Source: Candidatus Hydrogenedentota bacterium (GTDB lineage: Bacteria > UBA8481 > J006). From it: a stretch of DNA of 15,899 nucleotides. Location: the NCBI GenBank assembly GCA_003697085.1, contig RFFU01000130.1, positions 1 to 15,899 of the forward strand, in the 5' to 3' direction. The position numbers and the translations under genes are program-made. Positions 1 to 15,577 of this stretch are shown in pieces (positions within the stretch are counted from its first letter, which is position 1; every line of letters starts with the position of its first letter). Under the pieces are notes generated by a model that ran no database searches, had not been told where the DNA came from, and worked only from the letters and a program-made list of their open reading frames with translations.

Positions 1-3
1 CAT

Positions 4-40
4 TGTCATTCCGAGGCGCCTTGGCGCCGAGGAATCCCCT
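4..40. repeat. GTCATTCCGAG...GAGGAATCCCC palindromic repeat, copy 1
   Basis: The outer arms ATTCC and GGAAT pair, and the inner part is GGCGCC-TT-GGCGCC, so the unit can fold into a long imperfect hairpin. A second copy at 82-113 has the same ends and a shorter centre. Both copies are followed within about 15 nt by TATCCCG. From memory, repeats with GTCATTCCGAG ends are scattered in intergenic DNA of several uncultivated bacterial lineages; that comparison was not tested. Confidence 0.7.
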
Positions 41-81
41 CGATAGGATATCCCGCCCCGTGGGCCGATTGGCACCCCGGA

Positions 82-113
82 TGTCATTCCGAGCGCCAGC
101 GAGGAATCCCCTT
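82..113. repeat. GTCATTCCGAG...GAGGAATCCCC palindromic repeat, copy 2
   Basis: It begins TGTCATTCCGAG and ends GAGGAATCCCCTT, the same borders as the copy at 4-40. The centre here is only GCGCCAGC instead of the longer GGCGCC-TT-GGCGCC, so the ends are conserved while the loop side differs. The flank GGTATCCCG at about 120-128 matches the GATATCCCG after copy 1, so the repeated unit probably extends to that point. Confidence 0.7.
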
Positions 114-192
114 CAGGCGGTATCCCGAGGGAAGGGCAAGGGCGAGAAAAAGGGAATGGGGAAGGGAAACCAAAAAGGGAGAGGGAAGCGCT

Positions 193-270
193 TCCTGGGA
201 ACGCAAATCTGCCTGCACAAAGGCCCGCAAGGAGCGCCATCCCTGGGAACGCAGGCATCCTGCCTACAGG
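193..270. repeat. Pair of direct CCTGGGAACGCA repeats
   Basis: CCTGGGAACGCA occurs at 194-205 and again at 242-253. Each copy is followed by a short segment ending CTGCCT (207-215 and 258-265), so each unit is about 25-30 bp. In the second copy AGGCA-TCC-TGCCT can form a small stem. The units are 48 bp apart and lie in gene-free DNA. No function is proposed. Confidence 0.55.
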
Positions 271-339
271 AATGAGAGCAGGGTATAGGCACGGCATGGG
301 GCGCAGGTTCTTCAACAAGCGGGGGGCGGTTCTGTGCTT

Positions 340-359
340 CGCAGACAAGAGTGTCTGCG
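340..359. repeat. Perfect 8-bp hairpin in gene-free DNA
   Basis: CGCAGACA (340-347) and TGTCTGCG (352-359) are perfect complements around a 4-nt loop. Transcription of the operon upstream would read through it on the minus strand, but no T-run follows on that strand, so it is not a standard rho-independent terminator. It is more likely the core of another interspersed repeat, or an mRNA 3'-end stabilising stem. Confidence 0.6.
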
Positions 360-375
360 CCCTACATCTCCTGTA

Positions 376-436
376 TCCTTTTTCCTTTTGCCGTTTGACT
401 TTTGCCTTTTTCCTCTTCCGTGTCTTCCGTGGTTCA
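376..436 (-). repeat. Composite ACGGAAGACACGG / GGCAAAAGGAAAAAGG repeat at a gene end
   Basis: Read on the minus strand, the sequence after the TGA stop is AACCACGGAAGACACGGAAG, then GGAAAAAGGCAAAAG and GGCAAAAGGAAAAAGG. The stop codon itself is the first part of the repeat (TGAACCACGG). The same two modules, in the same order and orientation, follow the stop codon of the FecR-domain gene at 13272 downwards. It is probably a mobile or amplified intergenic repeat; a role in mRNA 3' ends is possible. Confidence 0.65.
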
Positions 437-910
437 GTTCGATTCCGTCTTCGGCGCGTAATACACGAAGATACCGCTGCCCTTCGCGAAGCCTTGACGA
501 GGGCTTATCGTCACCTGAGCAATCTTTCCCGGCTTGTCGAAGACCATACGCACCTTTTCCCGTTCAATCATCGAAACCAACTGCCAATCGTAATTCGGCA
601 TCTCTTTGCGGAAGAACTCGATCACAGCCCCCACCTCGGCCGGCCCCTGAAAATAAACCGTGCCGGCCAGAACATCGCCGTACTCGAGAATCATCGACTT
701 CGCGGCATCGTAGGTGAACCCGGCCGGGACGGGAAGATCGGGAATCCGTAACGCCGCGGCCGGCTGAAGTTCCTCGACAACGCCTTCTTCCTCCACGGCA
801 AGCCCGCTTCCCTCGTCCGCTTGCTTCTCCGGCAACGTGCAACCCGCCGCCAGAATCAGTCCCACACCGAAGATCGCCGCTCCCATTCTCCTCGTTCCGA
901 TGCCTTTCAT
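434..910 (-). CDS. Small lipoprotein of unknown function, last gene of the operon
   Basis: A 158-residue predicted lipoprotein. The N-terminus has charged residues, a hydrophobic stretch and a lipobox LAAGC at about residues 20-24, so the mature protein would start at Cys24 and be membrane-anchored. A short acidic linker (about 25-50) leads to one compact domain (about 53-155), which begins IPDLPVPAGFTYD and contains FFRKEMPNYDWQLVS. That pattern of hydrophobic strands plus a P-Y-x-W helix resembles small exported domains seen in other bacteria, but I cannot name the family. The start is well supported: GGAGGAGAA lies six to nine bases before ATG, and ATG overlaps the previous stop as ATGA, implying translational coupling to the coiled-coil HhH protein. 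It is probably a membrane anchor or accessory subunit of the complex encoded upstream. Confidence 0.85.
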   Translation of the reverse strand: MKGIGTRRMGAAIFGVGLILAAGCTLPEKQADEGSGLAVEEEGVVEELQPAAALRIPDLPVPAGFTYDAAKSMILEYGDVLAGTVYFQGPAEVGAVIEFFRKEMPNYDWQLVSMIEREKVRMVFDKPGKIAQVTISPRQGFAKGSGIFVYYAPKTESN

Positions 911-2817
911 TTCTTCTCCTCCTCTCCAAATCCTACAACGCCTCTCAATCGCTTGATCCGCGCCTCGTTGAAACCCGGAACCCTTCTCAAGGTTTCGAAA
1001 TCGGTAATCGGCCCGACCTGTTCGCGGTACCAGATGATCGCCCGCGCGCGGGAAGGGCCGATTCCCGACACCGCCGCCAATTCATCGAACCCGGCGCGGT
1101 TGATATTCAACAACGCTTTCCCCGGTTTCGTCAATGCCACCGGCGGCGCGGAAACCGTCTCCGCGCTCGAACCCTCCCGGACGGAAGCAGGGGACGGTTT
1201 CCCCTCTTCCCCGGCCCGCGGCGCCAATGCTCCTCCCGCAAGGGCCGCCCTCAACGCGGCCACCTCCTTCCGCAGATCATCGCGCTCGCGTTCGAGTTCA
1301 GCGGCGTGGTTGAGCGCTTCCGCAAGCCTCCGCGTCACGGAGCGCAATCGCGAATCGGCACCGGCCAGAGCGGACGCTTCCGCCGCCTTTTCTTTCCATT
1401 CGTCGCGCTCCTTCCGAGCCGCCTTCAACGCCGCCTCGCTCTTCTTCAGGATCGCCGCCGCTTCCCGCAGCGATTTCTGGTTCTCCTCCAGTTCTCGGAT
1501 CAATCGATCCCGCTCCTTCGCCACGGCATCCCGGTCCTTCCGGAGTTTTTCCATCTTCGCTTCTTGTTCCTTCAACTCTTCGTCGAGTTGGTTCAGTTTT
1601 CCTTCCAAAACTTCTCCGTAACGCACACGCGCCGCCAGGGCCTTCGAATCCGACTCGAGACGCCGTACTCTCTCTTCCAACGTCTCCGCGCGTTTTTTCC
1701 ATTTTTCGAGGTCCTGGTCCGCTCCCTTCCGCAAGGCCGCCAGTTTCTCGATCAATTTCAGGTTTTCCTTCTCCTTCTCGCGAAACCGAGCCTGCGCCTG
1801 TTCGGATCGGTTCTTCAAGGCCGCCACCTTCTCCTTCAATTTCGTGACATCCGCCCGTAATCGATCCCGCTCCGCCTCGACCGCCGCCAGCGAATCGGCC
1901 ACGATCGCGCCCGAAACGATTTCCTCCTTCAGATGAAGGAAAGAATCCCTCCACTCCGCGGCTTCGGCGGCAAACCGGTTCTTCTCCAATACCAGACGCG
2001 CGATGCTGTCTTCCCAAGCATTGCGCTCCCCTCGAAGTTTCGCCATCTCCCCCCTCAACTCCGCCAGTTTTTTCACTACGCCCTCCCGCTCGATCAATTC
2101 CTTCTCCTGGAGCGCCGCGCGCGTCTGGAGGCTTTGCGCGCGCTCTTTCCACTCGTCGCGATCCTTCTCCGCCCGGACCAATCGCGCTGAAAGCGCCTGT
2201 ATCGTCTCGGAAGATTCGCTCCTTCGAACGGCCTCCTTCAAGGAAGCCTCTTCCTTCTCCAACTCTGCAATCCGAGCCTGCAGATCGGCGTTCTTCTTCT
2301 CGAGTTCCGCCTTCTCCCGCACGGTACCTTCCAAGGAAGCCTTTTCCTTCTCCAAATCCGCGATTCGGCCGCGCAAATCCGCGATCTTCTTCTCGAACTC
2401 CGCTTTTTCCCGCTTGGTGTTCGCAATCTCAACCTTCAGATTCTTCAGCGATTCCTCGAGAGAATACAACCGGCCTTGCGCCGCGTTCCATCGCCGTACC
2501 AGGGAATCGTTCCGCTCGGTCAATCTCCGGTTCTCCGCCTCGATCTCGGCAACGCGTTTTTCGAGCACCGAGGCGCGATTCTCGGCTTCCACGATCTTGG
2601 CTTGGATTTCCGCGACACGACGATTCGCCTTCGCTTCGGCCAACGCCACCGCGGCCATCGCCCGTTCCACGATCCGGCGTACCTGCTCCTCCGACGGAGC
2701 CTCCGCCGGCTTCTTCGCCTCGGCCCGAACGGACGCCACTCCGGCAACGAAAAGAAGAAAAAGAAGAAGAAACGCGAAGCGACACCCCTCCCGGGCGGCG
2801 CGGACGCCGCACATCAT
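907..2817 (-). CDS. Exported coiled-coil protein with C-terminal ComEA-type helix-hairpin-helix domain
   Basis: A 636-residue protein. Residues 1-32 form a Sec signal peptide (hydrophobic core 14-28, likely cleavage VRA|EA). Residues about 38-525 are almost continuous coiled coil rich in E, K, R, L and A. A flexible linker (about 526-565) precedes a C-terminal HhH domain (about 566-630) containing LLNINRAGFDELAAVSGIG, then ARAIIWYRE and a second VPGF hairpin. This matches the ComEA HhH family, which binds double-stranded DNA during natural transformation; ComEA itself is short, so the long coil is an unusual addition. A 31-residue segment is tandemly duplicated at about residues 134-196. The start overlaps the previous stop as ATGA, with two consecutive Met codons and no clear ribosome-binding site, so re-initiation is likely. 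It shares its architecture with its upstream neighbour. It probably sits in the periplasm as a rod or tether; DNA binding is inferred from family only. Confidence 0.85.
   Translation of the reverse strand: MMCGVRAAREGCRFAFLLLFLLFVAGVASVRAEAKKPAEAPSEEQVRRIVERAMAAVALAEAKANRRVAEIQAKIVEAENRASVLEKRVAEIEAENRRLTERNDSLVRRWNAAQGRLYSLEESLKNLKVEIANTKREKAEFEKKIADLRGRIADLEKEKASLEGTVREKAELEKKNADLQARIAELEKEEASLKEAVRRSESSETIQALSARLVRAEKDRDEWKERAQSLQTRAALQEKELIEREGVVKKLAELRGEMAKLRGERNAWEDSIARLVLEKNRFAAEAAEWRDSFLHLKEEIVSGAIVADSLAAVEAERDRLRADVTKLKEKVAALKNRSEQAQARFREKEKENLKLIEKLAALRKGADQDLEKWKKRAETLEERVRRLESDSKALAARVRYGEVLEGKLNQLDEELKEQEAKMEKLRKDRDAVAKERDRLIRELEENQKSLREAAAILKKSEAALKAARKERDEWKEKAAEASALAGADSRLRSVTRRLAEALNHAAELERERDDLRKEVAALRAALAGGALAPRAGEEGKPSPASVREGSSAETVSAPPVALTKPGKALLNINRAGFDELAAVSGIGPSRARAIIWYREQVGPITDFETLRRVPGFNEARIKRLRGVVGFGEEEKK
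2230..2415 (-). repeat. Tandem 93-bp direct repeat inside the coiled-coil HhH gene
   Basis: Two adjacent 93-bp units encode near-identical 31-residue segments. One starts REKAEFEKKIADL and the next REKAELEKKNADL; each ends with a KASLEGTV- or EASLKEAV-type sequence. The matching sequence CAAGGAAGC recurs at an offset of exactly 93 nt (2239 and 2332). The unit is in frame and close to a multiple of the heptad, so it lengthens the coil without breaking it. The differences between units indicate the duplication is not very recent. Confidence 0.75.
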
Positions 2818-5800
2818 CGCACGCGCACCAGACTCCGCAAAATCTTCGCCGACTTCGCGTCGAATCCGGGCACCTTCGCCAACTCGTCCACGCTCCGGAA
2901 CTCCCCCACGTTCTCGCGGTACCAGACGATGTTCCGCGCCTCCTGAATCCCAACCCCCGGTAAGGCCCGCAATTCCTCGATCGAAGCCGTATTGAGATTG
3001 ATCCCCTTCTCGAGCGGTTCCTCCAGGACCGTCACGCTCTTGTACCTCCTCGCCTCCTGTTCCAACGCCCCCAACCGCGCTTGAAGGTTCGCCATCTCGG
3101 AACGCAACTGGTCCGACTCCCGAATCAATTCCTCCTTCTCACGCCCCAATTCCTCGAGGCGTTTCCGGGCGGAGGCGAGATCCTGCCGGATCATCGCATT
3201 CTCGCGAACCACACGCTGGTAAATATCCGAGCGCGCCAGAAGAGCCGTATCGTTCTTCGTCAAGGCCTCCATCTGCTCCTGCAACCGCTTCGCTTGGGTC
3301 TGCGCCGCCTCGAGGCGCTTTTGATACTCCGCCTGCAATGAACTCAACTGGTTGTCGTAATCCCTCTGCATCCGAATTCGATCCGCTTCGTAAGTTGCTT
3401 CGATCTTCGCTTTCTCCTCGAGATACTTCACCTGCGCGTTCGCCTCGATCTCCGCGCGCAATTTCTCAGCTAACGCCAGTCTCTTCGCCAAGGCCTCCGA
3501 GGCCAACCGCTGCTTTTCTTCGTTCACGCGCCGAATCACTTCGGAATCCGCCGCGGCTTGCGCCTTCGCGATCTCTTCCTCAGCCTGCACCCGCGCTCGA
3601 TCGATCTGCTTCTTCGCATCCGCGAGAACCTTCGCGATCTCGGAATCGGCCTGGAGTCGAATGCGGCGGATCCGCTCCTCGGCGTCCAACTGGTTCTTCG
3701 CGACACGCGCGTCCGCCGTCAAACGAACCTTTTGAATGTAGTACTTCAAACGCTCGAGCGGAGTCCGGTTCGCAACCTCCTCCGTCTCCGCGCCGAGTTC
3801 CTTCAAGCCGAACATAATCTCTTTGTCGATCTGCTCTTCGAGTTCCTTCGCCTCGCGGGTCTTCGCCTCCGCTTCGGCCCGCTTCCTCTCCGCCGCCGCT
3901 AACGCCTCTTCCTTGATCGCCTTCTCACGCTCCAACGCCGCGGAGAGCGTCGCGATCCGCTCGCGGAGATTGGCCAACGAGGCGGATTCCACGGCCTCGT
4001 ATCCCGGAGGGATTCCTCCCGTTCCGGCCTCGACAGCCGGTTCCCTTTCCGCCGCCTTCCGACTCCCCCGCTCTCCGCCGACTTTTCCTCCTACGGCCGC
4101 CGATTCCGTTTCCGGCGCTTCCGTCGCCTTCGCCGACTCCGCTCCGGGCGCCGGAGCCATCCGCGCGGGACCACTCCTTCGCTCCAACGCCCTCGCACGC
4201 TCCTCCGCCTGCTCCCTCAACGTGCGCTCCCGGCGCAACGCCGCCTCCCAATCCCTCTTCTCCCGCTCGAAGTGCTCCAAAAGTTCCTTGCGAACCTCTT
4301 CGCGAATCCGATCCGCTCCAACGGCGGTTTGCGCCGCTTCCCGAATCTGCTCGACCTGCTTCCGCGCCGTCTCTTGGATCCATGCCACGCGCGAATCGGC
4401 TTCGGCCTGAATCCGGCGGATCTTCTCTTCCATCTCCCGACGCATCGCCTCGACCTTCTTCGCCGCCGCTTCGTTGATCTCCTGAATCCGGCGCTCGTTC
4501 TCTTCCTGAGCCTTCGCCAGACGCTGCTCCGCATCCTTCGCCAGCTTCTCGTAGCGCGAACGCCAAATCGCCCGCTCCGCCTCCACCGCTTCCTGCACTT
4601 CGTTCTGTTCACTTACATCTCGATACTTCCGTTCGTATTCCAACGCCCGCGCCGCGCGGCCCACCTCGGCATAGAGCGAGGCGAGTTTCTTGTAATAGGG
4701 CGCCCGGTCTTGGGCGCGCTCGGCAATCAATTCGTAACTGCGGATCGCTTCCTTCAACCTCCCCATCCGGTAATAGACGTCCGCAAGAGAGTTGAGCACT
4801 TCGCTGTCCGAGGGATTCGCGCGCCACGCACGCTCCAACTCCGGTAACGCCGCGTCATACTTCCCCAACCGGTAATACCCCAAGCCCAACGGAGCCGATA
4901 GCTCGGGGTAGTCACCATATTCGCGAACCTTCTCCATCTCCCGTACGGCCTCGCCGATCCGGCCGACCTCGAGGAGCGCCTGCGCGAGTTTGTACCTCAC
5001 CGCGACATCCTTCTCGTTCTCGATGAGGACGTTCCGGAAACTGGAGATTGCCTGGTTGTAACGCCCGAGGTCGAACTGAACGAGGCCGAGTGTGCGGTAT
5101 GCCAGACGGCTTTCCTTAACGCGCGGCGCGGCGCGTTCCAACTGGCGCGCCGCTTCTTCCAACCTCCCCCGGCTCTTCTCGATCAACCCCAGATTCAACC
5201 GAACCTCCGCATCGTCCGGCGCTTTCGCCAAGACCTGACGATAGAGATCGGCCGCCTTCTCCAAATTCCCCAGTTTGTGATAACAGAAGGCCCGCAATGT
5301 CAAAGCCGTTCGGTCGCTCTTCAGAGCCGGCACCTTCTCCAAGAGATCGATCGCGTTGCGGTAACGTTGTTTACCGAGTTCGACGCGCGCAAGAAGCATT
5401 CCGATCTTCGGCTGATTCGGGTTCAGAAGAAGCGATTTCCGGTAATGCACCAGGGCGGCCGATTTGTTTCCGGCGCGATAGAGCGTTCCGGCATACGCGG
5501 CTTGCAAGACGGCATCGTTCGGCCGAATTTCAACCGCCTGCTTGTAGTACTTCGCGGCATCCGCATACCGACGCCGATCGATCAGAAGTTTCGCGGTCTG
5601 AACCTGGGCCTCGTAGAATGCGGGGTCGGCGTCGGCCGCTTGCTGAAATTCGTTCAAGGCCTTCTCCGACAGACCCGCGGCAAGATAGCGCAGCCCAAGA
5701 TCGTAGTGGGAACGGGCAATCGTCGAAAGACTTCCCGCTCCGGAAGCCGGCGCGGCCGCGGCCGCCGAAATAACTCCTCGTGGGAAGAAGAAAGAAAGGA

Positions 5801-5924
5801 GAAGGAGAACGATCAGAAAACGAAGGATCGACGCACGTTCCCACCGGCCGATACTTTCCCCGGCACGATTCGATTTCCCATTTCCGTATTCAACTCCGGT
5901 CTTCTCCGCGATCATCGTCCTCAT
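2814..5924 (-). CDS. Exported TPR / coiled-coil protein with C-terminal ComEA-type helix-hairpin-helix domain
   Basis: A 1036-residue protein. After a long polar N-region, residues about 33-57 are hydrophobic and end in an Ala-rich stretch, consistent with a Sec signal peptide or anchor. Eleven TPR units follow (about 66-435), each with the usual G-Y-x-x-A and A-x-P pattern. Then come a coiled coil (about 436-585), a Pro/Ala/Gly-rich linker (about 586-645), a second coiled coil (about 646-965) and an HhH domain (about 972-1036) with INLNTASIEELRALPGVG, ARNIVWYRE and KVPGF. The HhH domain is closely similar to ComEA and to the one ending the next gene. The motif IRRI-x-x-x-ADS recurs near residues 500 and 748, so the two coils may be related by duplication. 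GGGAG lies three bases before the ATG, which is tight, and Met4 is an alternative start. It is separated by 81 nt from the gene upstream. A structural or scaffolding envelope protein is inferred. Confidence 0.87.
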   Translation of the reverse strand: MRTMIAEKTGVEYGNGKSNRAGESIGRWERASILRFLIVLLLLSFFFPRGVISAAAAAPASGAGSLSTIARSHYDLGLRYLAAGLSEKALNEFQQAADADPAFYEAQVQTAKLLIDRRRYADAAKYYKQAVEIRPNDAVLQAAYAGTLYRAGNKSAALVHYRKSLLLNPNQPKIGMLLARVELGKQRYRNAIDLLEKVPALKSDRTALTLRAFCYHKLGNLEKAADLYRQVLAKAPDDAEVRLNLGLIEKSRGRLEEAARQLERAAPRVKESRLAYRTLGLVQFDLGRYNQAISSFRNVLIENEKDVAVRYKLAQALLEVGRIGEAVREMEKVREYGDYPELSAPLGLGYYRLGKYDAALPELERAWRANPSDSEVLNSLADVYYRMGRLKEAIRSYELIAERAQDRAPYYKKLASLYAEVGRAARALEYERKYRDVSEQNEVQEAVEAERAIWRSRYEKLAKDAEQRLAKAQEENERRIQEINEAAAKKVEAMRREMEEKIRRIQAEADSRVAWIQETARKQVEQIREAAQTAVGADRIREEVRKELLEHFEREKRDWEAALRRERTLREQAEERARALERRSGPARMAPAPGAESAKATEAPETESAAVGGKVGGERGSRKAAEREPAVEAGTGGIPPGYEAVESASLANLRERIATLSAALEREKAIKEEALAAAERKRAEAEAKTREAKELEEQIDKEIMFGLKELGAETEEVANRTPLERLKYYIQKVRLTADARVAKNQLDAEERIRRIRLQADSEIAKVLADAKKQIDRARVQAEEEIAKAQAAADSEVIRRVNEEKQRLASEALAKRLALAEKLRAEIEANAQVKYLEEKAKIEATYEADRIRMQRDYDNQLSSLQAEYQKRLEAAQTQAKRLQEQMEALTKNDTALLARSDIYQRVVRENAMIRQDLASARKRLEELGREKEELIRESDQLRSEMANLQARLGALEQEARRYKSVTVLEEPLEKGINLNTASIEELRALPGVGIQEARNIVWYRENVGEFRSVDELAKVPGFDAKSAKILRSLVRVR

Positions 5925-6005
5925 TCACTCCCGCACACCGGCTCCCGAGACCGCCGCCTCGGAAACCTCCAGCTGCATTCCCTTGCTTGTCTCTTCCGAG
6001 TATTT

Positions 6006-9000
6006 CTATCGGTTCCTTTTTTGACCCTCTTGAACAGTTAACGCCTCCCTGATCTTCTCCCGATCCCGGCGGATCGCCTCCGCCAACGCCTCGTCCTCGG
6101 TGATCGAAAGGGCCTGATCGAAATCGGCACGAGCCCGCGGAAAGATCTTCCTCGCCGCGAAAATCTTTCCCCGCTGGTAGAGTCTCTCCGCCGTCACCTT
6201 GATCTCCAGCGCCGCCGAAATCGCCTTCTCCGCCTCTTTCAGATCACCGGCTTCATAATACGCCCGCGCCAACGTCGCGTAAATGGCACCGTTGAACCGT
6301 GGCTCCTCTTTCCCTAGATCCTTTACCAACGCGATAGCCTCTTCCGCAGAACGCCCCATCTCCAAATAGAGGTCGGCGAGATTGTTCCGGGCCACGGGAT
6401 CCCTCGGATCGATCGCCAGCGCTTCCTGATATTCCCGCACGGCTCCGGAAAGATTCCCCGCCCCGCGCAACGCCAACGCCCGCTCGATATGGATCCGTTC
6501 GTCCTCCCGGCGCTCCGCCTCGACGCCGGTCGCCCCCGCCGATCCGCCCGAACCCTTCAGTCGATTCAAAGGACCATACTCTTGCGCCGCCTTTCGCAGA
6601 CGCGTCCGCAACGGCTCGACCGAAACCGTGTACGCCGGCTCCGGAACGGTCCGTTTCACAGTGCGAGGTCCACGGGAGACCGGCTCCTCTTCCTCCGCCT
6701 TCGAAAGCCCGCCCCGGCCTCGTTCCTCCGATACCGCCTCCGAAGCCGCACGCGACTCCTCCTTCGTCACCGCCGCTCTCTCTTCCCCAACCCCCGGAGC
6801 CGCCGTTCCGCGGGCTTGCGCCGCTGGAATAGTCGCCGCTGGCACGGCCGGAACCGGAGCCGAAACCGCCGTCGGAAGAACCGGCTCCACCTCCGGAATG
6901 ACCTCCGCCTCTTCCGCCTCCACCGCTCCGACAACGTCCGGTATCACCAGCAACTCGCCCGTCCCGCTGCTCGTCACACCCGCCATCTCGTCCCCCTCCC
7001 CGCCAGCAACCGCGACTCTCTTTCCCGTCGCAATCTCCCCCGTTCCTCCACGGCTGGATGGCGCTGCCTCTGGAATCGATTCGATCGGAACGGAAACCGG
7101 TGTCACCGGAGCGACCACGGGTTGCGCGCTTCCCAAGCCCGGAACCTCCTCGGCCAAAACCTCCGGAACCACCGGGGCGACGGGTTCGCTCATCTCAAGC
7201 GTTCCCGGCACCGCAGGTCCGCGGGACTTTTCCTCCTCCGGTCCGGCCTGCGCCGCCCCCGATTGCTCTTTCCGCGCTTTCCGTCCGCGTGAAACCGCCC
7301 CCGCCGCTTCCTCCGATTTCTCCTCGGTTTCCGCCGTCTTCACTTCTTTCTCGACGTTTTCCTCTCGCAACTCCGCTCCCTCTTTTTGTCCCCCCATCTC
7401 GAGTTCCTTCCTCTCCTTCCGCTGCTCGGCCTTTGCTTGTACCGATTTCTCCACTGCAACCTCTTTCTCCGCGGGCTCCCCCGCCTTCTCTTTCAAAACC
7501 TCTTCCGCGGGGACGAGCCGGAAGAGAACGACCGATTCCTCCGCCTTTCCCCTCTTCGCCGGTTTTTCCTTCTTCCCCGCCTTCTTCACCTGCCTGCGAT
7601 GACTCACGGACTTGACAGTCGTTTCTTCACCTCGGAGTTTTTCGGCGGACGCATTCGCCGGACGCGATTTCGGCTCCTCCTTCCCTTTCTTCCCGCCCGT
7701 CACCCCTTTTTCCTTGCGATGAGCCGCACTTTTTGCCGTTTCCTCGTGCTTCTTGGGCTTTGCTTTTTCTTCTTCCCTCTCGAAGTATTTCCATACCGCA
7801 GTGCTCATGACCGGCAACGGCTTCGAAGAAATATCGAGCCGGAACTCGCTCAGAATTTTTCGCGCTTCCTCTTTCTCCTTCGACGTTGCCGGTTTCGGTG
7901 CCGGCCGGAATTCCTCCGGACCGTTCACTCCCAACCCAAGAACGGCTTCCGGAGACGGTACTTTCTTGAGAACGGGCTTCGGCGGGGGAGGCGGAACACT
8001 GATGGCCTTCGCCGTGGTCTCTGATTCCTCTTTTCCAATTCTTGGCGAAACCGCAGGCTTCTCGATGCCCCTTTTCTCTTCGGATATCTCTTTCTTCTCT
8101 CCGCCTGTTTCACGGTGCGAGACCGCCTCCGAAACGGAGACCAGTTCGAAGGGACGCTCCGATTCCTCGGGAGCCTTTACCGCCGCCGCCCGCGCCTCTC
8201 TCTTTTCCTCCGGCTCCACGCCTCGCGCCGGCAGTGTCCCGGCTGGTTCCAACGCTTCCTCTTCCGCAACCGGAAGGAGAATGAACTCCTCCGGCGGAAC
8301 AGGACGAGCCCGCGAGGCAGCGGGAACGGCCCTCGATTCTTTCGTTGCAGGCCCGGGTTTCCGGGTCGGTCCCGCGGGGGCAATGGGCGCGGGTTTCTTT
8401 TCTTCCTTCTTCTCCTCCGCTTCCGCCTTTCGCCTCTCCCTTCCACGATTCTTCCCCGCCGACACCGCTTCGCTTTCTCTCTCCGGTGCCTCCCTCCGCG
8501 CCTCCCGCGGTTCTCCCATCTCGACCGAGATCGTCGAGACCGCGACTCTGCGCGTCACGGGAGGCACGGGCGCGGGGGCTTCTTTGGAAGAAACCTCCAC
8601 GACGGGCGGACTCTCTCTCCCACCTCCTTTCGCACGACCGGTCGCCGGCGTTTCCTGCGCTCTTGGAGTAACCGACGGCATCAAAGCCGTCGGGACGACG
8701 GAAACCGGCGAGGGCAAAGTTTTCGCTTCGCGCCTCGGAACAGGAAGATGTTTTTCGGGATAGACCACCGCTGTCTGTTCCGCCGTTTTCTTGACACTTC
8801 GGCCGGCCTTGGAGATCGGGAATCGATTCGAAACCTCCTTCGCGGTCCCTCGTTCCTTATGCGGAAGAAAACGAAGCGGAAATTCCGCGCCTTCCCCTGC
8901 CACCGGCGTTTTTCGCCCAACGGGACTCTCGGGCACCTTCGGAAACGTTCTTCGATGTTCCGGCGGCTTCTTCGCGACCTTTCTCTTCTTAGAGGACGAT

Positions 9001-9485
9001 GCGGCTTTTTCGCGAAGGATATCCTCCAGAACCTCGTCAGCGAGGCGCCGGGCCGAGGAGGATTTCCGTCGGGAAGCCCGCGAGCGTTCGGCGGAGGCGT
9101 TCCTCGCCAAGGACTCGATCTCCTTCAACCGTCTCTTCGCGAAACGAACCATCTCGGAATTCCCGTACTCTTTGACGAGGCGTTGGTAAGCACGGCGGGC
9201 CGCGTCGTACTGCTTCAATCGCTCGTAGGACAATCCGAGATAATACGCTGCTACGGCCGCTTCGGGAGCCGAGGGGAATGACGCTAGCACCTTCCCGAAG
9301 AGCCGCGCCGCTTCGGTGTATTCGCGCCGATCGAAGGTTCTTCTCGCCTCCTTCAACTGCTCTCCGGGCCCCGCCGCAGCCGCCGCAAGCACGATGCAAA
9401 AGATCAAACTAAAAACGATCGGACTTCGCCCCCGCATCCCCCGCTCCGGCATCCTCTTCACCGATGTTTCCGCCGTCTCTTCCAT
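6006..9485 (-). CDS. Exported protein with TPR domains at both ends and a very long low-complexity centre
   Basis: A 1159-residue protein counted from the first Met. The hydrophobic segment at about residues 21-38, ending AAAAAG, is a likely signal peptide. Residues about 40-125 form two or three TPRs of the kind found in YbgF/BamD-like envelope proteins, with KVLASFPSAPEAA and YYLGLSYERLKQYDAA. Residues about 130-985 are rich in E, K, P, A, R and S with no predicted fold. Residues about 995-1150 are again TPRs, with GNLSGAVREYQEALAIDPRD. Three short hydrophobic motifs stand out in the disordered part: FILLPVAEE (about 400), FELVSVSEA (about 445) and FRLVPAEEV (about 652). The start is uncertain: Met1 would overlap the previous gene by 28 nt, while Met12 (9452) and Met17 (9437, with GGAG six bases upstream) do not overlap. 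It may be a long flexible linker joining two TPR-bound partners across the envelope. Confidence 0.82.
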   Translation of the reverse strand: MEETAETSVKRMPERGMRGRSPIVFSLIFCIVLAAAAAGPGEQLKEARRTFDRREYTEAARLFGKVLASFPSAPEAAVAAYYLGLSYERLKQYDAARRAYQRLVKEYGNSEMVRFAKRRLKEIESLARNASAERSRASRRKSSSARRLADEVLEDILREKAASSSKKRKVAKKPPEHRRTFPKVPESPVGRKTPVAGEGAEFPLRFLPHKERGTAKEVSNRFPISKAGRSVKKTAEQTAVVYPEKHLPVPRREAKTLPSPVSVVPTALMPSVTPRAQETPATGRAKGGGRESPPVVEVSSKEAPAPVPPVTRRVAVSTISVEMGEPREARREAPERESEAVSAGKNRGRERRKAEAEEKKEEKKPAPIAPAGPTRKPGPATKESRAVPAASRARPVPPEEFILLPVAEEEALEPAGTLPARGVEPEEKREARAAAVKAPEESERPFELVSVSEAVSHRETGGEKKEISEEKRGIEKPAVSPRIGKEESETTAKAISVPPPPPKPVLKKVPSPEAVLGLGVNGPEEFRPAPKPATSKEKEEARKILSEFRLDISSKPLPVMSTAVWKYFEREEEKAKPKKHEETAKSAAHRKEKGVTGGKKGKEEPKSRPANASAEKLRGEETTVKSVSHRRQVKKAGKKEKPAKRGKAEESVVLFRLVPAEEVLKEKAGEPAEKEVAVEKSVQAKAEQRKERKELEMGGQKEGAELREENVEKEVKTAETEEKSEEAAGAVSRGRKARKEQSGAAQAGPEEEKSRGPAVPGTLEMSEPVAPVVPEVLAEEVPGLGSAQPVVAPVTPVSVPIESIPEAAPSSRGGTGEIATGKRVAVAGGEGDEMAGVTSSGTGELLVIPDVVGAVEAEEAEVIPEVEPVLPTAVSAPVPAVPAATIPAAQARGTAAPGVGEERAAVTKEESRAASEAVSEERGRGGLSKAEEEEPVSRGPRTVKRTVPEPAYTVSVEPLRTRLRKAAQEYGPLNRLKGSGGSAGATGVEAERREDERIHIERALALRGAGNLSGAVREYQEALAIDPRDPVARNNLADLYLEMGRSAEEAIALVKDLGKEEPRFNGAIYATLARAYYEAGDLKEAEKAISAALEIKVTAERLYQRGKIFAARKIFPRARADFDQALSITEDEALAEAIRRDREKIREALTVQEGQKRNR
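9444..9447 (-). promoter_or_regulatory. Candidate ribosome-binding site for an internal start (Met17) of the long TPR/disordered gene
   Basis: GGAG lies six bases before the ATG at 9435-9437. Starting there gives an N-terminus MRGRSPIVFSLIFC, a compact signal peptide with two Arg before the hydrophobic core. The Met1 start at 9485 has GAGGA only two or three bases upstream and would overlap the preceding gene. I favour Met12 or Met17 over Met1, but sequence alone does not decide. Confidence 0.45.
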
Positions 9486-9913
9486 TTCCTCGAATCCTTG
9501 TTCAAGAACATCGTCGCCTTGTATTTCGGAAGAAGAAGCGTTCCGTGATCTTCCATTACAAGCACATATTCATAGAGTTTTTTTCTATGCGTGCGGGCTT
9601 GAGGGGAAGGTGAAAAAACCACGGAGAACTTCTGCGTCCGCGAATCCGGCTTGTCGAAAAGATGCACCTCGTTGATGCGCTTCATCTGGTAATTCGGAGC
9701 GATACCCTCTTTCGGCATCTCAAATACGTCATCGGCCAACGGGGGATAGTAATGAAAATTCGAGCCGAGGATGCCATTGTCCACGCCGAGTCGGACTTCC
9801 TCCACGAACTTCCGCGCCTCCTTTTGGGGAAGATAATCCACGGCCACCTTCATCCAGCCGAAGACCCCCAGGGCCACAACCGCCAAAATGAAGAGTATGT
9901 CCTTGAGACTCAT
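9458..9913 (-). CDS. Small single-pass membrane-anchored protein of unknown function
   Basis: A 151-residue protein. Residues about 5-25 (ILFILAVVALGVFGW plus neighbours) form one transmembrane segment with a short N-terminal tail, so the rest (about 30-151) is probably periplasmic. That part is mixed polar sequence with ANYQMKRINEV-like strands in its middle and ends in the very basic KWKRRRKHR. It lacks the GFTLIE-type prepilin signature, so it is not an obvious type IV pilin. The start is firm: GAGGAG lies just before ATG, and ATG overlaps the previous stop as ATGA. Its last codons lie against or within the start region of the next gene. I do not recognise the family. Its place between an outer-membrane TPR protein and a large TPR protein suggests an inner-membrane component or chaperone of the same system. 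Confidence 0.75.
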   Translation of the reverse strand: MSLKDILFILAVVALGVFGWMKVAVDYLPQKEARKFVEEVRLGVDNGILGSNFHYYPPLADDVFEMPKEGIAPNYQMKRINEVHLFDKPDSRTQKFSVVFSPSPQARTHRKKLYEYVLVMEDHGTLLLPKYKATMFLNKDSRKWKRRRKHR

Positions 9914-11220
9914 TTCTCCTCGATCTCTCCCAAAAGCATCAGATTCTTCTTCGCCCGTTCATGATTCGGGTCGAGTTTCACGGCCTGTGCGAAGGCCCGG
10001 CGCGCTTCCCATAAATCGCCGTGCTTGTAATACACCAGACCCATATTGAAAAATATATCGGCATTGGTTGGGTCTAGGGTTGAGGCTTTTTCGTAGGCTT
10101 TCAGAGCCTGTTGTGTTTTTCCAACGTTGAAATAGGCGTTGCCGAGGTTGTTCCAGGCCGAAACGATACTTGAATCGCGGGACAGAGCCTGCCGGTAGAG
10201 CCGAATCGCTTCGCTGTAATCTCCGACCCGCATCGCGTCCTCCGCCCGCGCCACATCGGCTTCGGGAGGAGGAGCCGGCGGGCGGGCCCACTGAGCCCGC
10301 CCGTAACGCGTCGCCACTCCGGCATCCCGGCCGAATTCCTTTTTCAAACCTAAACGAAATTGCCAACTCGGGCTCGAACTGTTCAGCCCCGCTCCGCCGC
10401 TGATGTAATATTCCAACGTCGGCGTCACCTCCCCGGCAAGCCCTCCCTCCACCACAATGTCATTCTTTACGCCGGGAATCTCTTGCCCCCCTGAAACGGC
10501 ACTGATCGTGCCCCGAAGTTTCCTCAGGAGCCGATATTCGAACGCCGCTCCCCATTTGAATACGTCCGGGCGGTTCCCGGAAAAAAAAGTGTACCCCAGA
10601 TTCATATGGCCGACGCCGCGGGGGCCGAAACGCCTCGAAAGAGAATAATTGATGCCCACGGAGAGAGCCCCGCTGGCCACGACATCGTTCGGCCCGTTCC
10701 CTATGATCAACTCCGTTGCACTCGCCGGGGTTCCTCCGACATTCTCCGACATTTGATACTTGATTGAACCCTTCACGTCCGAAAGACCACTCCCGTCGTA
10801 ACGAACGTCGTCGGAACGTTGGATCGCAAACGGTACCTCCAAACCGAACTCCAATCGGTCTTTCCAGCCGTAACGAATCGAGGTGGGAACCTTTCGAAGG
10901 TCGATCTTCGTGCCGTTGAGCGGATAGCCGCCGCCGAGTTCCGCTCCCAACCCGACCTCCCAGACCCCGCGCCAGAGAACGGAGGCATCATCGACAGTGG
11001 CGACTCCGTAGCCGATCCGCGCCGAGACGGGATTCGAAAGGGAAAGGAGCAGCAGGAACGCCGGAAATTGGAAGGAAAAACGGAATCTTCTCGAGAGGGG
11101 CCGGCGTCGAAAATTGACCGTTCCAGCACCGCTTTGGCCGGTATCTCGAATGCCGATATTTCGGCGTCGGCCGCAACTCCCCCACTTTGTCATCTCCGTT
11201 CGCCTCATCGTCTCCATCAT
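9910..11220 (-). CDS. Outer-membrane beta-barrel protein with C-terminal TPR domain
   Basis: A 436-residue protein, first gene of the six-gene operon. The N-terminal region is long and Arg-rich; a hydrophobic stretch (about 51-62) ends at VSA|RI near residue 67, a likely signal peptidase site. Residues about 68-300 alternate polar and hydrophobic residues in beta-strand fashion, with WKDRLEFGLEVPFAIQ and GLSDVKGSIKYQM. This resembles outer-membrane transporter families such as the MetA-pathway phenol-degradation family (PF13557); that assignment is from memory. Residues about 320-425 are three clear TPRs, with AWNNLGNAYFNVGKTQQALKA as one (quoted in part). The barrel presumably leaves the TPR domain in the periplasm as a docking site. 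GGGGGAG lies just before two consecutive ATG codons. The next gene overlaps by ATGA. The extended N-region before the signal peptide is unusual and a later start cannot be excluded. Confidence 0.8.
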   Translation of the reverse strand: MMETMRRTEMTKWGSCGRRRNIGIRDTGQSGAGTVNFRRRPLSRRFRFSFQFPAFLLLLSLSNPVSARIGYGVATVDDASVLWRGVWEVGLGAELGGGYPLNGTKIDLRKVPTSIRYGWKDRLEFGLEVPFAIQRSDDVRYDGSGLSDVKGSIKYQMSENVGGTPASATELIIGNGPNDVVASGALSVGINYSLSRRFGPRGVGHMNLGYTFFSGNRPDVFKWGAAFEYRLLRKLRGTISAVSGGQEIPGVKNDIVVEGGLAGEVTPTLEYYISGGAGLNSSSPSWQFRLGLKKEFGRDAGVATRYGRAQWARPPAPPPEADVARAEDAMRVGDYSEAIRLYRQALSRDSSIVSAWNNLGNAYFNVGKTQQALKAYEKASTLDPTNADIFFNMGLVYYKHGDLWEARRAFAQAVKLDPNHERAKKNLMLLGEIEEK

Positions 11221-11282
11221 ACTCCCCCTCGACCGGCCCTGACAACAGAATCAAGGCACGCGGTGCGGTTTTGTCGGCAGCG

Positions 11283-11361
11283 CTGGACAGCCGCAGTCGC
11301 CTTGGAACGGCTTCGCGAGCCGTTGGAGACGTCCAGGAATGGACCTTGAGGCGTACGCCTC
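11283..11361. repeat. Nested inverted repeats in the leader of the six-gene operon
   Basis: CTGGAC (11283-11288) pairs with GTCCAG (11331-11336). Inside it AACGGCT (11306-11312) pairs with AGCCGTT (11318-11324) around TCGCG. Just outside lies the perfect 14-bp palindrome GAGGCGTACGCCTC (11348-11361). In minus-strand RNA this would give two adjacent stems about 60-140 nt upstream of the first start codon. It may be an interspersed repeat, a leader structure or an operator; the sequence does not decide. Confidence 0.5.
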
Positions 11362-11413
11362 GGCGGGGTAGGGCGGACGAGGGCACCCGCCCCTCAATTG
11401 CTGGTCCACGATG

Positions 11414-11439
11414 GGAGGTCCCGCCGTCCTCGCCGGGAC
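11414..11439 (-). repeat. GTCCCGG-type palindromic element, copy downstream of argB
   Basis: On the minus strand this is a 26-bp element beginning GTCCCGGCG and ending CGGGACCTCC, with CCCG/CGGG arms that can pair. A copy with 22 of 26 identical positions lies on the plus strand at 12931-12956. The two copies are in opposite orientation and bracket argB. Similarity extends weakly a few bases beyond each end (GTGCTC against CACGCTT; CCCATC against CATC). Confidence 0.65.
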
Positions 11440-11709
11440 GAGCACAGACGAGAACGCGCCGTAGTTCCTATCTCCCCCCCTACCCCTGATTTCGCCCCCG
11501 TCCTTGATCCTTCTCCTTTTTTGCCCTTGCCCCTGCCCTTGCCCTCCCTGTTACGCTGGCCGGGTGGACCACCTACGAAATAAATCGCACCCAAGGCAAG
11601 AGGGAACCTATCAATAAACCGGTATTCTGCACCAATCTTGTCCCCGGAACACCGTTCTCCCTCTCCGCAGGTCGGAGACCCCGCGCTCCATGGCCCTCCT
11701 AGCAAGAAC

Positions 11710-11724
11710 AAGCACGACGTGCTT
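11710..11724. repeat. Small hairpin AAGCAC-GAC-GTGCTT downstream of argB
   Basis: AAGCAC and GTGCTT are perfect complements around a 3-nt loop, about 58 nt past the argB stop codon in the direction of transcription. On the minus strand it is followed by GTTCTTGCTAGG, without a real T-run. It is therefore a poor candidate for a rho-independent terminator, though it could mark the end of the argB transcript. Confidence 0.4.
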
Positions 11725-11781
11725 CGCCTCGCTCTCCGAAACGTTGCCTCAAAAAATCTTACCCCTCGGTTCGAAAATAGC

Positions 11782-12666: not shown

Positions 12667-12743
12667 TCCTCCTCCACCTCGCGTGTGTCAACACCGCCTC
12701 GAAATCCTCGGAAATCCATGCCTTCTTCCGAACGAGTCGATTC

Positions 12744-12830
12744 TACGGAAGAAAGAAGGGAAAGGCAAAAGGCAAAAGGCAAAAGGAAAAAGGAAAAGGG
12801 AAAAGGGAGGAGCGAAGAGGGAAGAGGAAA
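12744..12830 (+). repeat. Polypurine tract with three tandem GGCAAAA units
   Basis: GGCAAAA occurs three times in tandem at 12764-12784, followed by GGAAAAA, GGAAAAG and GGGAAAAG units, and preceded by ACGGAAGAAAGAAGGG. The tract is almost purely A and G on the plus strand. It contains the same modules, in the same order, as the composite repeats at 376-436 and 13147-13272, but in the opposite orientation. It lies about 80-165 nt upstream of the argB start codon. Confidence 0.7.
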
Positions 12831-12930
12831 TCGGAGCGGGGGTTCTCAACCTGCCGAGGCGACAGAAGCGATGGAGGGAGTGGCGTCCTTGTCCGCCCAT
12901 GTGCCTTCCGCCCGCGTTCCGCCCACGCTT

Positions 12931-12956
12931 GTCCCGGCGCGGGCACCGGGACCTCC
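12931..12956 (+). repeat. GTCCCGG-type palindromic element, copy upstream of argB
   Basis: GTCCCGG (12931-12937) and CCGGGAC (12946-12952) are perfect 7-bp inverted arms around an 8-nt GC-rich loop, followed by CTCC. It is 22/26 identical to the minus-strand copy at 11414-11439. Immediately beyond, ACCTCCAT (12951-12958) pairs with ATGGAGGT (12972-12979), so two overlapping stems are possible. Confidence 0.65.
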
Positions 12957-13000
12957 ATCAGCCGATCCGTAATGGAGGTGCGGAATCCACGAGATTCTTT

Positions 13001-13090
13001 TCGTTTTATCCATGTCTTCCGTATGCTCCGTGGTTGTCGCCGTCTATCGTTTTCCGTTTACCGTTCTTCGTTTTTCATTTTCCATGGTTG
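13001..13090 (-). repeat. Degenerate ACGGAAGAC / AAAACG repeat zone
   Basis: Read on the minus strand, it contains CGAAGAACGGTAAACGG, AAAACGATAGACGG and CCACGGAGCATACGGAAGAC. These are diverged relatives of the CCACGGAATACACGGAAGAC units found nearer the FecR-domain gene, in the same orientation. It appears to be an older part of the same repeat family. Confidence 0.5.
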
Positions 13091-13146
13091 AACGGCATGG
13101 TTGAAACCGTCAACGGAAAGGAGTGAACAGTGAATGTTGGACAAGA

Positions 13147-13272
13147 ATTTCTTTTTTTTCCTTTTGCCTTTCTCATTTTCCGTGTCTTCCGTCTATTCCG
13201 TGGTTTTATTCCCTTCCGTGTCTTCCGTGTATTCCGTGGTTCCTTTCCCTTCCACGTATTCCGTGTGTTCTG
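13147..13272 (-). repeat. Tandem composite ACGGAATACACGGAAGAC / GGCAAAAGG repeat behind the FecR-domain gene
   Basis: On the minus strand, directly after the TAG stop, come a diverged ACACGGAATACGTGGAAGG, then CCACGGAATACACGGAAGAC and CCACGGAATAGACGGAAGAC, each followed by GGAA-type spacers, and finally AAAGGCAAAAGGAAAA. That is about two and a half ACGGAA units followed by the purine module, the same order as at 376-436. Both copies begin within a few bases of a stop codon. Confidence 0.7.
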
Positions 13273-14463
13273 CTATTCGCAGATGCCTTTCACTCCAATA
13301 CCGATCTGAACCTGAAACTCGGCCGCAACAACCGGTTGGACGAGAACATCTTGAACCCTCTGTAACTCCACGTTGTTTTCCGCCATAATCCCCGGCTGTT
13401 GCACCAGCGGCGCTTCTCCACCGGGCGTCAAATCCCCCCCCCCTTCCAGGGTTTGCTCGCTGAGAATCGTGATTTCTCCGGCTCCGGCTCCTTCTCCCCC
13501 CGCTCCTTCACCGCCTTCACCTCCCCCTTCGGCTCCTTCGCCACCGGTCAGAACTCCCTCTCCTCCCCCTTCACCGCCGCCGGTTCCTTCGCCTTCTCCG
13601 CCCCCACCGCCTTCCGCCGTGGCTCCGCCGCCCTCGCCGCCGGCATTTCCCGCCGTTGCTTGGTTCGGACCTCGGCCTCGATTTCCTCTCCCCGTGTTCC
13701 CAAAACCCCGCCCTCGATTCCCGGCTCCGCGATGCCCTCGTCCCTGTACCATTGCTTCCATACGAAACGTCTGCCCCGCGTTCACCAACGTCGCGGCCGC
13801 CGGACCCGTCGGGTCGACCGATACCTGCCCCTCCAACACCGTGCACTCGAACCGCATCAACGCTCCCCCCGCCGGAAACTGCCCCAGCGTCACCGGCTCC
13901 TTCGCCGCGGACGTTCCTCCTCCGCCGACGCCCCCTTCTTTCTCCACCAACCGCACGCTGAAAACCGTCCCCCGCACGCCCGCCACCGCGACCGGCGTGT
14001 TGACCTTGTAATCCGAATTTCGTCCCATGCCTTTCAGGATCGAGACCGCCTCGCCTTTCTCCAACTTCATGCTGTATCGATAATCCGTCTTCTTCGTCGA
14101 GAAGATCCCGATCTTCGCGCCGGGACGCGTGATCTTCTCCGCACGCTCGATCTCGAACTCTGTCTCCGGCGCCAGGCTCACAACGTTCTTTTCCGATAAT
14201 CGCAAAACAACCCGGGAACGCTTTCCTGTCCTGATCACGGTTCCCGGCCGCAAACGTTCCCGCTCGTGAAGTATCCGAAACGTCTCTTCTCCGGGGGGCT
14301 TCACGCTCACGTCTCCGTCGGCGCGCAGAACCGTCGCTAATTGAACCCTCTCCTTCGCCCGCACCGCGGTAGGAGGCATCAGTGCCAGAAGGACGGCTAC
14401 GATCGTGAAGAGACTCACTCCTCTCCTCAGCCCGCTCCTATTCACCTTCACCCTCATCTTCAT
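13273..14463 (-). CDS. Exported FecR-domain protein with Gly/Glu-rich C-terminal region
   Basis: A 396-residue protein. Residues 1-36 form a signal peptide (core about 16-29, cleavage VRA|KE). Residues about 40-170 match a FecR domain: VLRADGDVSVKPP, the central LRPGTVIRTGKRSRVVLRLS, and the hallmark VNTPVAVAGVRGTVFSV (154-170). In this family the domain is a periplasmic beta-rich module, either sensing signals for anti-sigma control or simply acting as an exported binding domain. No sigma factor is in the window and no cytoplasmic anti-sigma segment is visible, so the second type is more likely. Residues about 240-335 are dominated by Gly, Glu and Ala. The last 60 residues are more ordered, ending VKGICE. 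GGAGG precedes ATG, and the gene lies 34 nt after the porin-like gene, so the two are probably co-transcribed. Partner and ligand are unknown. Confidence 0.85.
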   Translation of the reverse strand: MKMRVKVNRSGLRRGVSLFTIVAVLLALMPPTAVRAKERVQLATVLRADGDVSVKPPGEETFRILHERERLRPGTVIRTGKRSRVVLRLSEKNVVSLAPETEFEIERAEKITRPGAKIGIFSTKKTDYRYSMKLEKGEAVSILKGMGRNSDYKVNTPVAVAGVRGTVFSVRLVEKEGGVGGGGTSAAKEPVTLGQFPAGGALMRFECTVLEGQVSVDPTGPAAATLVNAGQTFRMEAMVQGRGHRGAGNRGRGFGNTGRGNRGRGPNQATAGNAGGEGGGATAEGGGGGEGEGTGGGEGGGEGVLTGGEGAEGGGEGGEGAGGEGAGAGEITILSEQTLEGGGDLTPGGEAPLVQQPGIMAENNVELQRVQDVLVQPVVAAEFQVQIGIGVKGICE

Positions 14464-14497
14464 CGCCTCCTCCCTCCTTTTGACCTCCGCGCAAACC

Positions 14498-15577
14498 TCA
14501 CCAGGCTGTCAGCGCTTGAATCGCAAAAACGTCGTCCTTCACTTTTCTCCCGTCCGGATAGAGCGCATTCACGCTGTTGAAATCGTACTCGGCTTGTATT
14601 TGTAAAACCGGATTCGCCTGCCAGGTAACGCCAATCCTTCTTGCAATCCGATCCCAGGACCACGGTCGATCGAAATCGACGACGTCGGCGTTCACCCGAT
14701 ATTGCCCAAAGGAACCCAGAAGACTCAAATTCGACCGGATTTTTCCTCGAATTCCGACCTCCCACGCCTCGTGCTCCAAGTCCCCCTCGTCCGCGAAGAC
14801 CCCGTCGCCGTAAAAACGCACCGGACCATAGATGTAATCGACGGAACCCTCGATCACGCGACGGTTCCGATCGTTCTGATTGATGAAATACATCCCCGAG
14901 TTGGCGATCGTCCGCACGTCCTCGTCCGACAACGTTCCGTATGTTCCCGTCATATTCACCTCGACCGTCCCCCAGGCTCCTCCCGCACCCGACCCCAACG
15001 AGAGATAAATCTCCGGAGGGTCCGCGCTGAACGGCGCTATCGAAGGGCGGCTGATCGCCAAAACGTTCGCGATGGAAGTTCCGGAGAGCGAAAGCGGATT
15101 CCGATTCGTTACTCCGAACTCGTATCGCACTTGCTGATCCTCCATCTCTCCCGAATATTTGATTCCGATCGTCGAGAAAGAACGAAAGATAAGCGTGGGA
15201 AGGGAAAGATTCAATGTGGGAATCGGCGCGCCCCGCGGGCGGTAAAACTGCCCGAAGGTCAGCCGCCCCGGGCCCAGTCCGTCCAGCGCCAACCACGCCT
15301 CCGTTACCGCCAACGTGTCCGGCAAAAGACTCACCCGGGCCATCCCCTGAAGTATCTCCGAAAAACGCGGCTGAAGGATCAACTGGGCCTGCGTGAAACG
15401 GATCCTGTTGTTCGCATCGTCGGGCCCGTAGAGCGGATGGCCGAACTCCGCATCCTGATACTCCGCGATGAAGTTCCCGTGTATCTCCATCTCCACCGCA
15501 ACGACCGGCGCTCCGAACACCACCAGCAATACCGCCGCCAAAACGGCACCGCCTCTTTTTCCCATGAATTCCTTCAT
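14498..15577 (-). CDS. Porin-like outer-membrane beta-barrel protein
   Basis: A 359-residue protein. A signal peptide covers about residues 1-27 (GAVLAAVLLVVFGAPVVA). The mature chain alternates residues as beta-barrel strands do, with EIHGNFIAEYQDAEF near the start, LGPGRLTFGQFYRPRGAPIP (about 104-123) and VRFYGDGVFADEGDLEHEAW. It ends in an aromatic residue (LTAW), a common signal for outer-membrane insertion. The strand-turn pattern and the F-G-Q-F segment resemble phosphate-selective-porin-like (OprO/OprP type) proteins of uncultivated Gram-negatives; substrate cannot be read. Start choice: the first ATG has AAGGA only just upstream, whereas Met5 (15565) has AAGGA four bases before it, so Met5 may be the true start. 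It follows the PorV-like gene by 93 nt and precedes the FecR-domain gene by 34 nt. Confidence 0.82.
   Translation of the reverse strand: MKEFMGKRGGAVLAAVLLVVFGAPVVAVEMEIHGNFIAEYQDAEFGHPLYGPDDANNRIRFTQAQLILQPRFSEILQGMARVSLLPDTLAVTEAWLALDGLGPGRLTFGQFYRPRGAPIPTLNLSLPTLIFRSFSTIGIKYSGEMEDQQVRYEFGVTNRNPLSLSGTSIANVLAISRPSIAPFSADPPEIYLSLGSGAGGAWGTVEVNMTGTYGTLSDEDVRTIANSGMYFINQNDRNRRVIEGSVDYIYGPVRFYGDGVFADEGDLEHEAWEVGIRGKIRSNLSLLGSFGQYRVNADVVDFDRPWSWDRIARRIGVTWQANPVLQIQAEYDFNSVNALYPDGRKVKDDVFAIQALTAW

Follow-up and report, generated by a model that had tools for sequence, protein, structure and literature searches.

The window analysed here, 15,899 nucleotides long, is the complete contig C28 of a Candidatus Hydrogenedentota bacterium genome (G000; 3.2 Mb in 145 contigs, completeness 94.6%). 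The listing of its open reading frames places six genes, A to F, on the minus strand, read from position 11220 to position 434. Gene A (9910–11220; 436 residues) encodes a Sec-type signal, a predicted outer-membrane β-barrel (about residues 68–297) and C-terminal TPRs (319–429), and gene B (9458–9913; 151 residues) a lineage-specific product made up of an N-terminal membrane anchor and a small, mostly β domain. The product of gene C (6006–9485; 1,159 residues) has a signal peptide and a TPR region at either end (42–113 and 991–1135), joined by a Pro-rich low-complexity linker of about 860 residues. Gene D (2814–5924; 1,036 residues) encodes a signal peptide, a TPR array (about 66–431), a charged helical rod (435–962) and a C-terminal HhH domain, and gene E (907–2817; 636 residues) a signal peptide, a helical rod of about 495 residues and, again, a C-terminal HhH domain. 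Gene F (434–910; 158 residues) encodes a lipoprotein with the lipobox LAAGC (Cys24), whose small family is widespread.

Packing, export signals and conservation of the cluster

A sequence-only reading of this DNA had described six tightly packed genes whose products all carry an export or membrane signal and together could span the envelope, and the layout agrees with it. Overlaps of 4 bp (ATGA) occur at three junctions, A/B, D/E and E/F, and the widest junction of the cluster is the 81-bp gap between C and D. The 28-bp overlap of B and C hinges on the start chosen for C and is probably an artefact, since Met17 of C (position 9437), the likely true start, aligns with Met1 of its homologue in a second genome of the phylum. 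Terminator-like sites within the cluster are not commoner than in shuffled sequence. The N-termini of A, C, D and E each have a Sec-type hydrophobic stretch; with the N-terminal anchor of B and the lipobox of F, all called by eye without a predictor, these signals would direct every product to the envelope.

Profile searches, in line with that reading, found TPRs in A, C and D (Pfam) and an HHH_3 domain at the C-terminal end of both D and E; B had no Pfam or NCBIfam match, and F no Pfam match. The barrel–TPR description of A held for its TPR part, which was modelled confidently by AF2 (pLDDT 86–96), whereas the barrel appears as a low-confidence alternating-strand pattern of 11 strands (pLDDT about 20–47). 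The model of B was likewise of low confidence, the alignments for both A and B having only two rows. Homologues of B were found in 2 of 386 genomes, with a single marginal match besides and no credible homologue outside the phylum among the genomes searched. Cross-phylum homologues of the A barrel were weak, mostly unfused generic barrels, and were set aside.

The rods that the sequence-only reading had placed before the HhH domains are borne out by composition: the 495-residue rod of E (residues 36–530) contains 2 Pro, and 44% of its residues are charged; the D segments 435–590 and 660–962, with one Pro each, are similarly charge-rich and poor in Pro and Gly. Homologues of F occur in 28 of 386 genomes, in other gene contexts, and in several of these genomes they adjoin a TPR-like membrane protein; given this spread, F was ruled out as a marker of the system.

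In the genome set analysed, the phylum is represented by two genomes, that of the window and G001 (completeness 86%), whose DNA bears the NCBI label Candidatus Hydrogenedentes bacterium CG07_land_8_20_14_0_80_42_17. The A-B-C order is the same in both, with identities of 51% for A, 35% for B and 40% for C over its N-terminal 149 residues. The G001 contig stops within the C homologue, so that conservation of gene order is visible for A-B-C and the linkage to D–F lies beyond the contig's end. Upstream of A stands argB in the genome of the window and a gene for a 693-residue TPR-like protein in G001. The G001 assembly (86% complete) yielded no homologue of D beyond isolated TPR or HhH matches, no homologue of F and no clear orthologue of E. 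A G001 reading of suitable length on contig C15 (L042:2864–6031) was rejected as a D homologue; it has an amidase-like start, one HhH domain and a phospholipase-D-like end.

These data raise the possibility, which we regard as somewhat unlikely and which is compatible with the other readings considered below, that two neighbouring units, a conserved A-B-C and a D-E(-F), are joined just in this genome. The width of the C/D junction, the lack of D and F homologues in G001 and the different surroundings of F elsewhere would all fit such a junction, but the genes share a strand and a consistent envelope theme, terminator-like sites are no commoner than in shuffled sequence, and the missing D–F in G001 may be an assembly gap because the contig stops inside C.

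Intergenic stretches of the window (1–433, 11221–11781 and 12667–13272) are 72–93% identical to other regions of the same genome, and such interspersed repeats may account for contig breaks. At 13273–15577, an exported protein that has a FecR domain and a Gly-rich tail adjoins a 359-residue exported porin-like protein that has no Pfam match.

HhH domains of D and E

The HhH domains occupy positions 2832–3008 in D (minus strand; residues 973–1031) and 940–1110 in E (minus strand; residues 570–626). Both exceed the curated Pfam cut-off of 27 bits for HHH_3 (64.9 bits, E = 6.9e-18, in D; 52.4 bits, E = 5.8e-14, in E), and the ComEA-type structures 8dfk, 8dss and 2duy are among their nearest solved relatives. 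They fall below the NCBIfam models of ComEA itself, scoring 55.0 (D) and 48.7 (E) against a cut-off of 152.35 for TIGR01259, and 48.8 and 52.1 against 53.1 for TIGR00426. The sequence-only reading had offered DNA capture as one possibility and had pointed to the Gly hairpins as the place to look: hairpin 1 is intact in both domains (PGVG in D, SGIG in E), whereas hairpin 2 is degenerate in both (VPGFD and VPGFN), so that neither has the two intact GxG hairpins of ComEA.

The two domains belong to a rare sub-type. In a collection of 112 HhH domains from the loci examined, 11, including D and E, combine a Trp in the second helix (column 28, as in NIVWYRE) with a ‘VPG’ second hairpin. None of these Trp-type domains keeps GxG in hairpin 2, and nine of the 11 have lost it from hairpin 1 as well, leaving D and E as the only two in which hairpin 1 is intact; both hairpins are kept in 42 of the 101 other domains. 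Eight of the 11 fall in one clade of nine (support 0.83) in a 100-sequence tree of this short domain, which is modest evidence for their grouping.

The central DNA contact of ComEA is K164 in Bacillus subtilis, equivalent to K63 in Vibrio cholerae (PMC9747964, PMC3879209), and K193, K197 and K199 of the B. subtilis protein have likewise been tested for DNA contact (PMC9747964). In V. cholerae, the K63E substitution abolishes transformation, and variants lacking either HhH motif lose DNA binding (PMC3879209). At the columns of K164, K193, K197 and K199, the solved ComEA fragment 8dfk has K, K, K and K, D has E, K, I and R, and E has R, A, R and R. With Glu at the K164 column and a degenerate hairpin 2, the domain of D makes an unpromising candidate for DNA binding of the ComEA kind; for that of E, DNA contact is possible, given its intact SGIG and Arg at three of the four contact positions.

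D and E thus resemble ComEA in their HHH_3 fold, export and hairpin 1, and differ from it in lacking hairpin 2, in the Trp of helix 2, in the absence of the key Lys from D and in rods of 500–1,000 residues in place of a short receptor. A second comparison is offered by GspK, in which a periplasmic HhH-like domain serves protein contacts. The D domain scores above the Pfam cut-off for the SAM-like (HhH-type) T2SSK family (26.2 versus 24.2), although D differs from GspK in having a signal peptide and TPR and coil segments in place of a pseudopilin N-terminus, and the window contains no T2SS genes.

The genome also contains the competence and type IV pilus genes that the sequence-only reading had suggested looking for, all of them away from the cluster. 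There are two copies of comEC domains, and contig C110 (L011:5257–8415) encodes in succession an exported ComEA-like protein with four HhH domains, a metallo-β-lactamase protein resembling the ComEC C-terminal domain, and a lipoprotein with two HhH domains. Lys at the K164 position occurs in none of the six HhH domains of this row. Pilus assembly genes were recognized by reading the sequences of contigs C110 and C88.

It is against this background that a DNA-capture or DNA-tethering device has to be weighed, in which the HhH heads (that of E in particular) would bind incoming periplasmic DNA on long rods and pass it to the ComEA/ComEC pathway. The kinship with 8dfk, the intact first hairpins, the Arg residues of E (with two basic contacts in D) and the presence of comEC, ComEA-like and pilus genes speak for it. 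We nevertheless consider it quite unlikely: hairpin 2 is degenerate in D and E, the other Trp-type members have lost both hairpins, D carries at its K63 equivalent the very charge reversal that ends transformation in V. cholerae, and the cluster is not linked to the competence genes.

Secretins with HhH tails and related rod proteins

Contig C88 of the same genome (L012:5880–13910) encodes a type IV pilus-type secretin, near pilN/O/P-like genes, whose 2,676-residue reading carries seven Secretin_N stretches together with a Secretin domain and ends in four HHH_3 domains (Pfam). Equivalents occur in G001 and in three genomes of a family denoted f31 (G030, G177 and G312), with a divergent one in G019 (family f20); those of G001 (L043:4116–8759) and G030 (L051:5229–11834) are similarly giant, with repeated Secretin_N domains and a C-terminal tail of three or four HHH_3 domains. 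The tails of the G000, G001 and G030 proteins lack GxG in both hairpins, and secretin HhH tails also match T2SSK. A description of an HhH-tailed secretin was not found in the open-licence literature searched.

The strongest matches to a secretin-HhH profile (at least 99 bits; 356 genomes searched) and to a Trp-type HhH profile (at least 84 bits; 386 genomes searched) come from one and the same set of five genomes (G000, G001, G030, G177 and G312). These represent two lineages, or three with f20, in which both features are present more weakly; both profiles were seeded with members of two of these lineages.

The design of D itself recurs in f31, in all three genomes and three genera. There, proteins of 557–735 residues combine an N-terminal hydrophobic export signal, TPRs, a disordered or coil segment and a C-terminal Trp-type HhH domain; they differ from D in being shorter, in having lost both Gly hairpins and in lacking adjoining A, B or C genes. 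The gene is preceded by one for an exported TPR-like protein of 308–326 residues in 3 of 3 cases, and followed by a lipoprotein gene in 2 of 3. Barrel–TPR proteins exist in f31 and were considered as counterparts of A; they do not adjoin the HhH protein. Comparison of a single gene, that for ValRS, does not place f31 specially close to the genome of the window, a hint that the sharing of these features goes beyond simple sister-group ancestry. Exported TPR-coil-HhH proteins were not found described in the open-licence literature searched, nor was any system of the composition of the whole cluster, in accord with the sequence-only reading.

Pilotins of secretins (PilF/PilW/Tgl, TadD) are, like D, TPR proteins at the envelope; to our knowledge, those known are small lipoproteins that lack both coil and HhH segments. 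The TPRs of D match the corresponding models below their curated cut-offs (type_IV_pilW, 80.9 versus 154; social_mot_Tgl, 89.9 versus 225). TadD and RcpA are a described lipoprotein–secretin pair (PMC10499894).

A general envelope-maintenance scaffold of Tol-Pal/CpoB kind, which would connect the outer membrane with peptidoglycan and the inner membrane, with no tie to secretin or DNA and with HhH as just an oligomerization head, is a further reading, and in our judgement an unlikely one. The N-terminal TPR of C is YbgF/CpoB-like, at 38.0 against a cut-off of 90.1 for the curated Tol-Pal CpoB/YbgF model, and the company of TPR proteins and lipoproteins, around the D-like genes of f31 and around F-type lipoproteins elsewhere, would suit such a role. 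Yet the window holds no Tol-Pal gene or peptidoglycan-binding domain, and the Trp-type HhH tracks the HhH-tailed secretins.

A candidate docking scaffold

The reading that we favour, tentatively and at a little short of an even chance, is that the cluster encodes an envelope-spanning protein scaffold with the HhH domains of D and E as docking heads, plausibly around the type IV pilus secretin. The barrel of A would be anchored in the outer membrane with its TPRs facing the periplasm, B would be anchored in the inner membrane, and C, with a TPR region at either end, would serve as a flexible linker in the periplasm. D and E would be long periplasmic rods, accompanied by the small lipoprotein F. 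Their heads would mainly dock proteins, much as the HhH/SAM-like domain of GspK does, and might assemble around the secretin, whose own C-terminus carries four HhH domains here. We infer these positions, the joint assembly and the docking from the exported or anchored nature of the products, the conservation of A-B-C in G001, the hairpin loss, the Glu in D, the recurrence in f31 and the co-occurrence with the secretins. The scaffold reading is tempered by the GIG and three basic contacts that E keeps, the position of the secretin genes on other contigs, the reach of the co-occurrence across only about three lineages with profiles seeded by two, the low-confidence models of the barrel and B, and the fact that D, F and a clear E orthologue were not found in G001.

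A bolder form of the docking scaffold, which we think distinctly improbable, posits a periplasmic HhH docking code, with the tandem non-DNA-binding HhH domains of the secretin tail binding the HhH heads of long TPR or coiled-coil rods. In the few little-known lineages concerned, the result would be an envelope-spanning scaffold built around the secretin, here joined to an outer-membrane barrel–TPR protein.

Outside the cytoplasm, an HhH domain of the ComEA type is usually interpreted as a DNA receptor. If the docking scaffold is real, the Trp-type HhH, with most DNA-contact hairpins lost, would be an instance of the domain put to new use as a docking module in the envelope. Annotators would then have reason to be wary of assigning such proteins to competence, and a new kind of secretin tail would gain a concrete partner that can be tested.

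Further Trp-type coil-HhH proteins are encoded on contigs C1 and C46 of G000 and on contig C185 of G001. On contig C1 (L013:2–4247), a gene for a coil and TPR protein of more than 1,168 residues, cut by the contig start, overlaps one for a 254-residue exported coil-HhH protein, which gives the genome of the window a second locus built in this style. In another lineage, clustered genes on contig C33 of G030 (L080, L053) encode Ser/Thr-kinase-like proteins that end in HhH domains.
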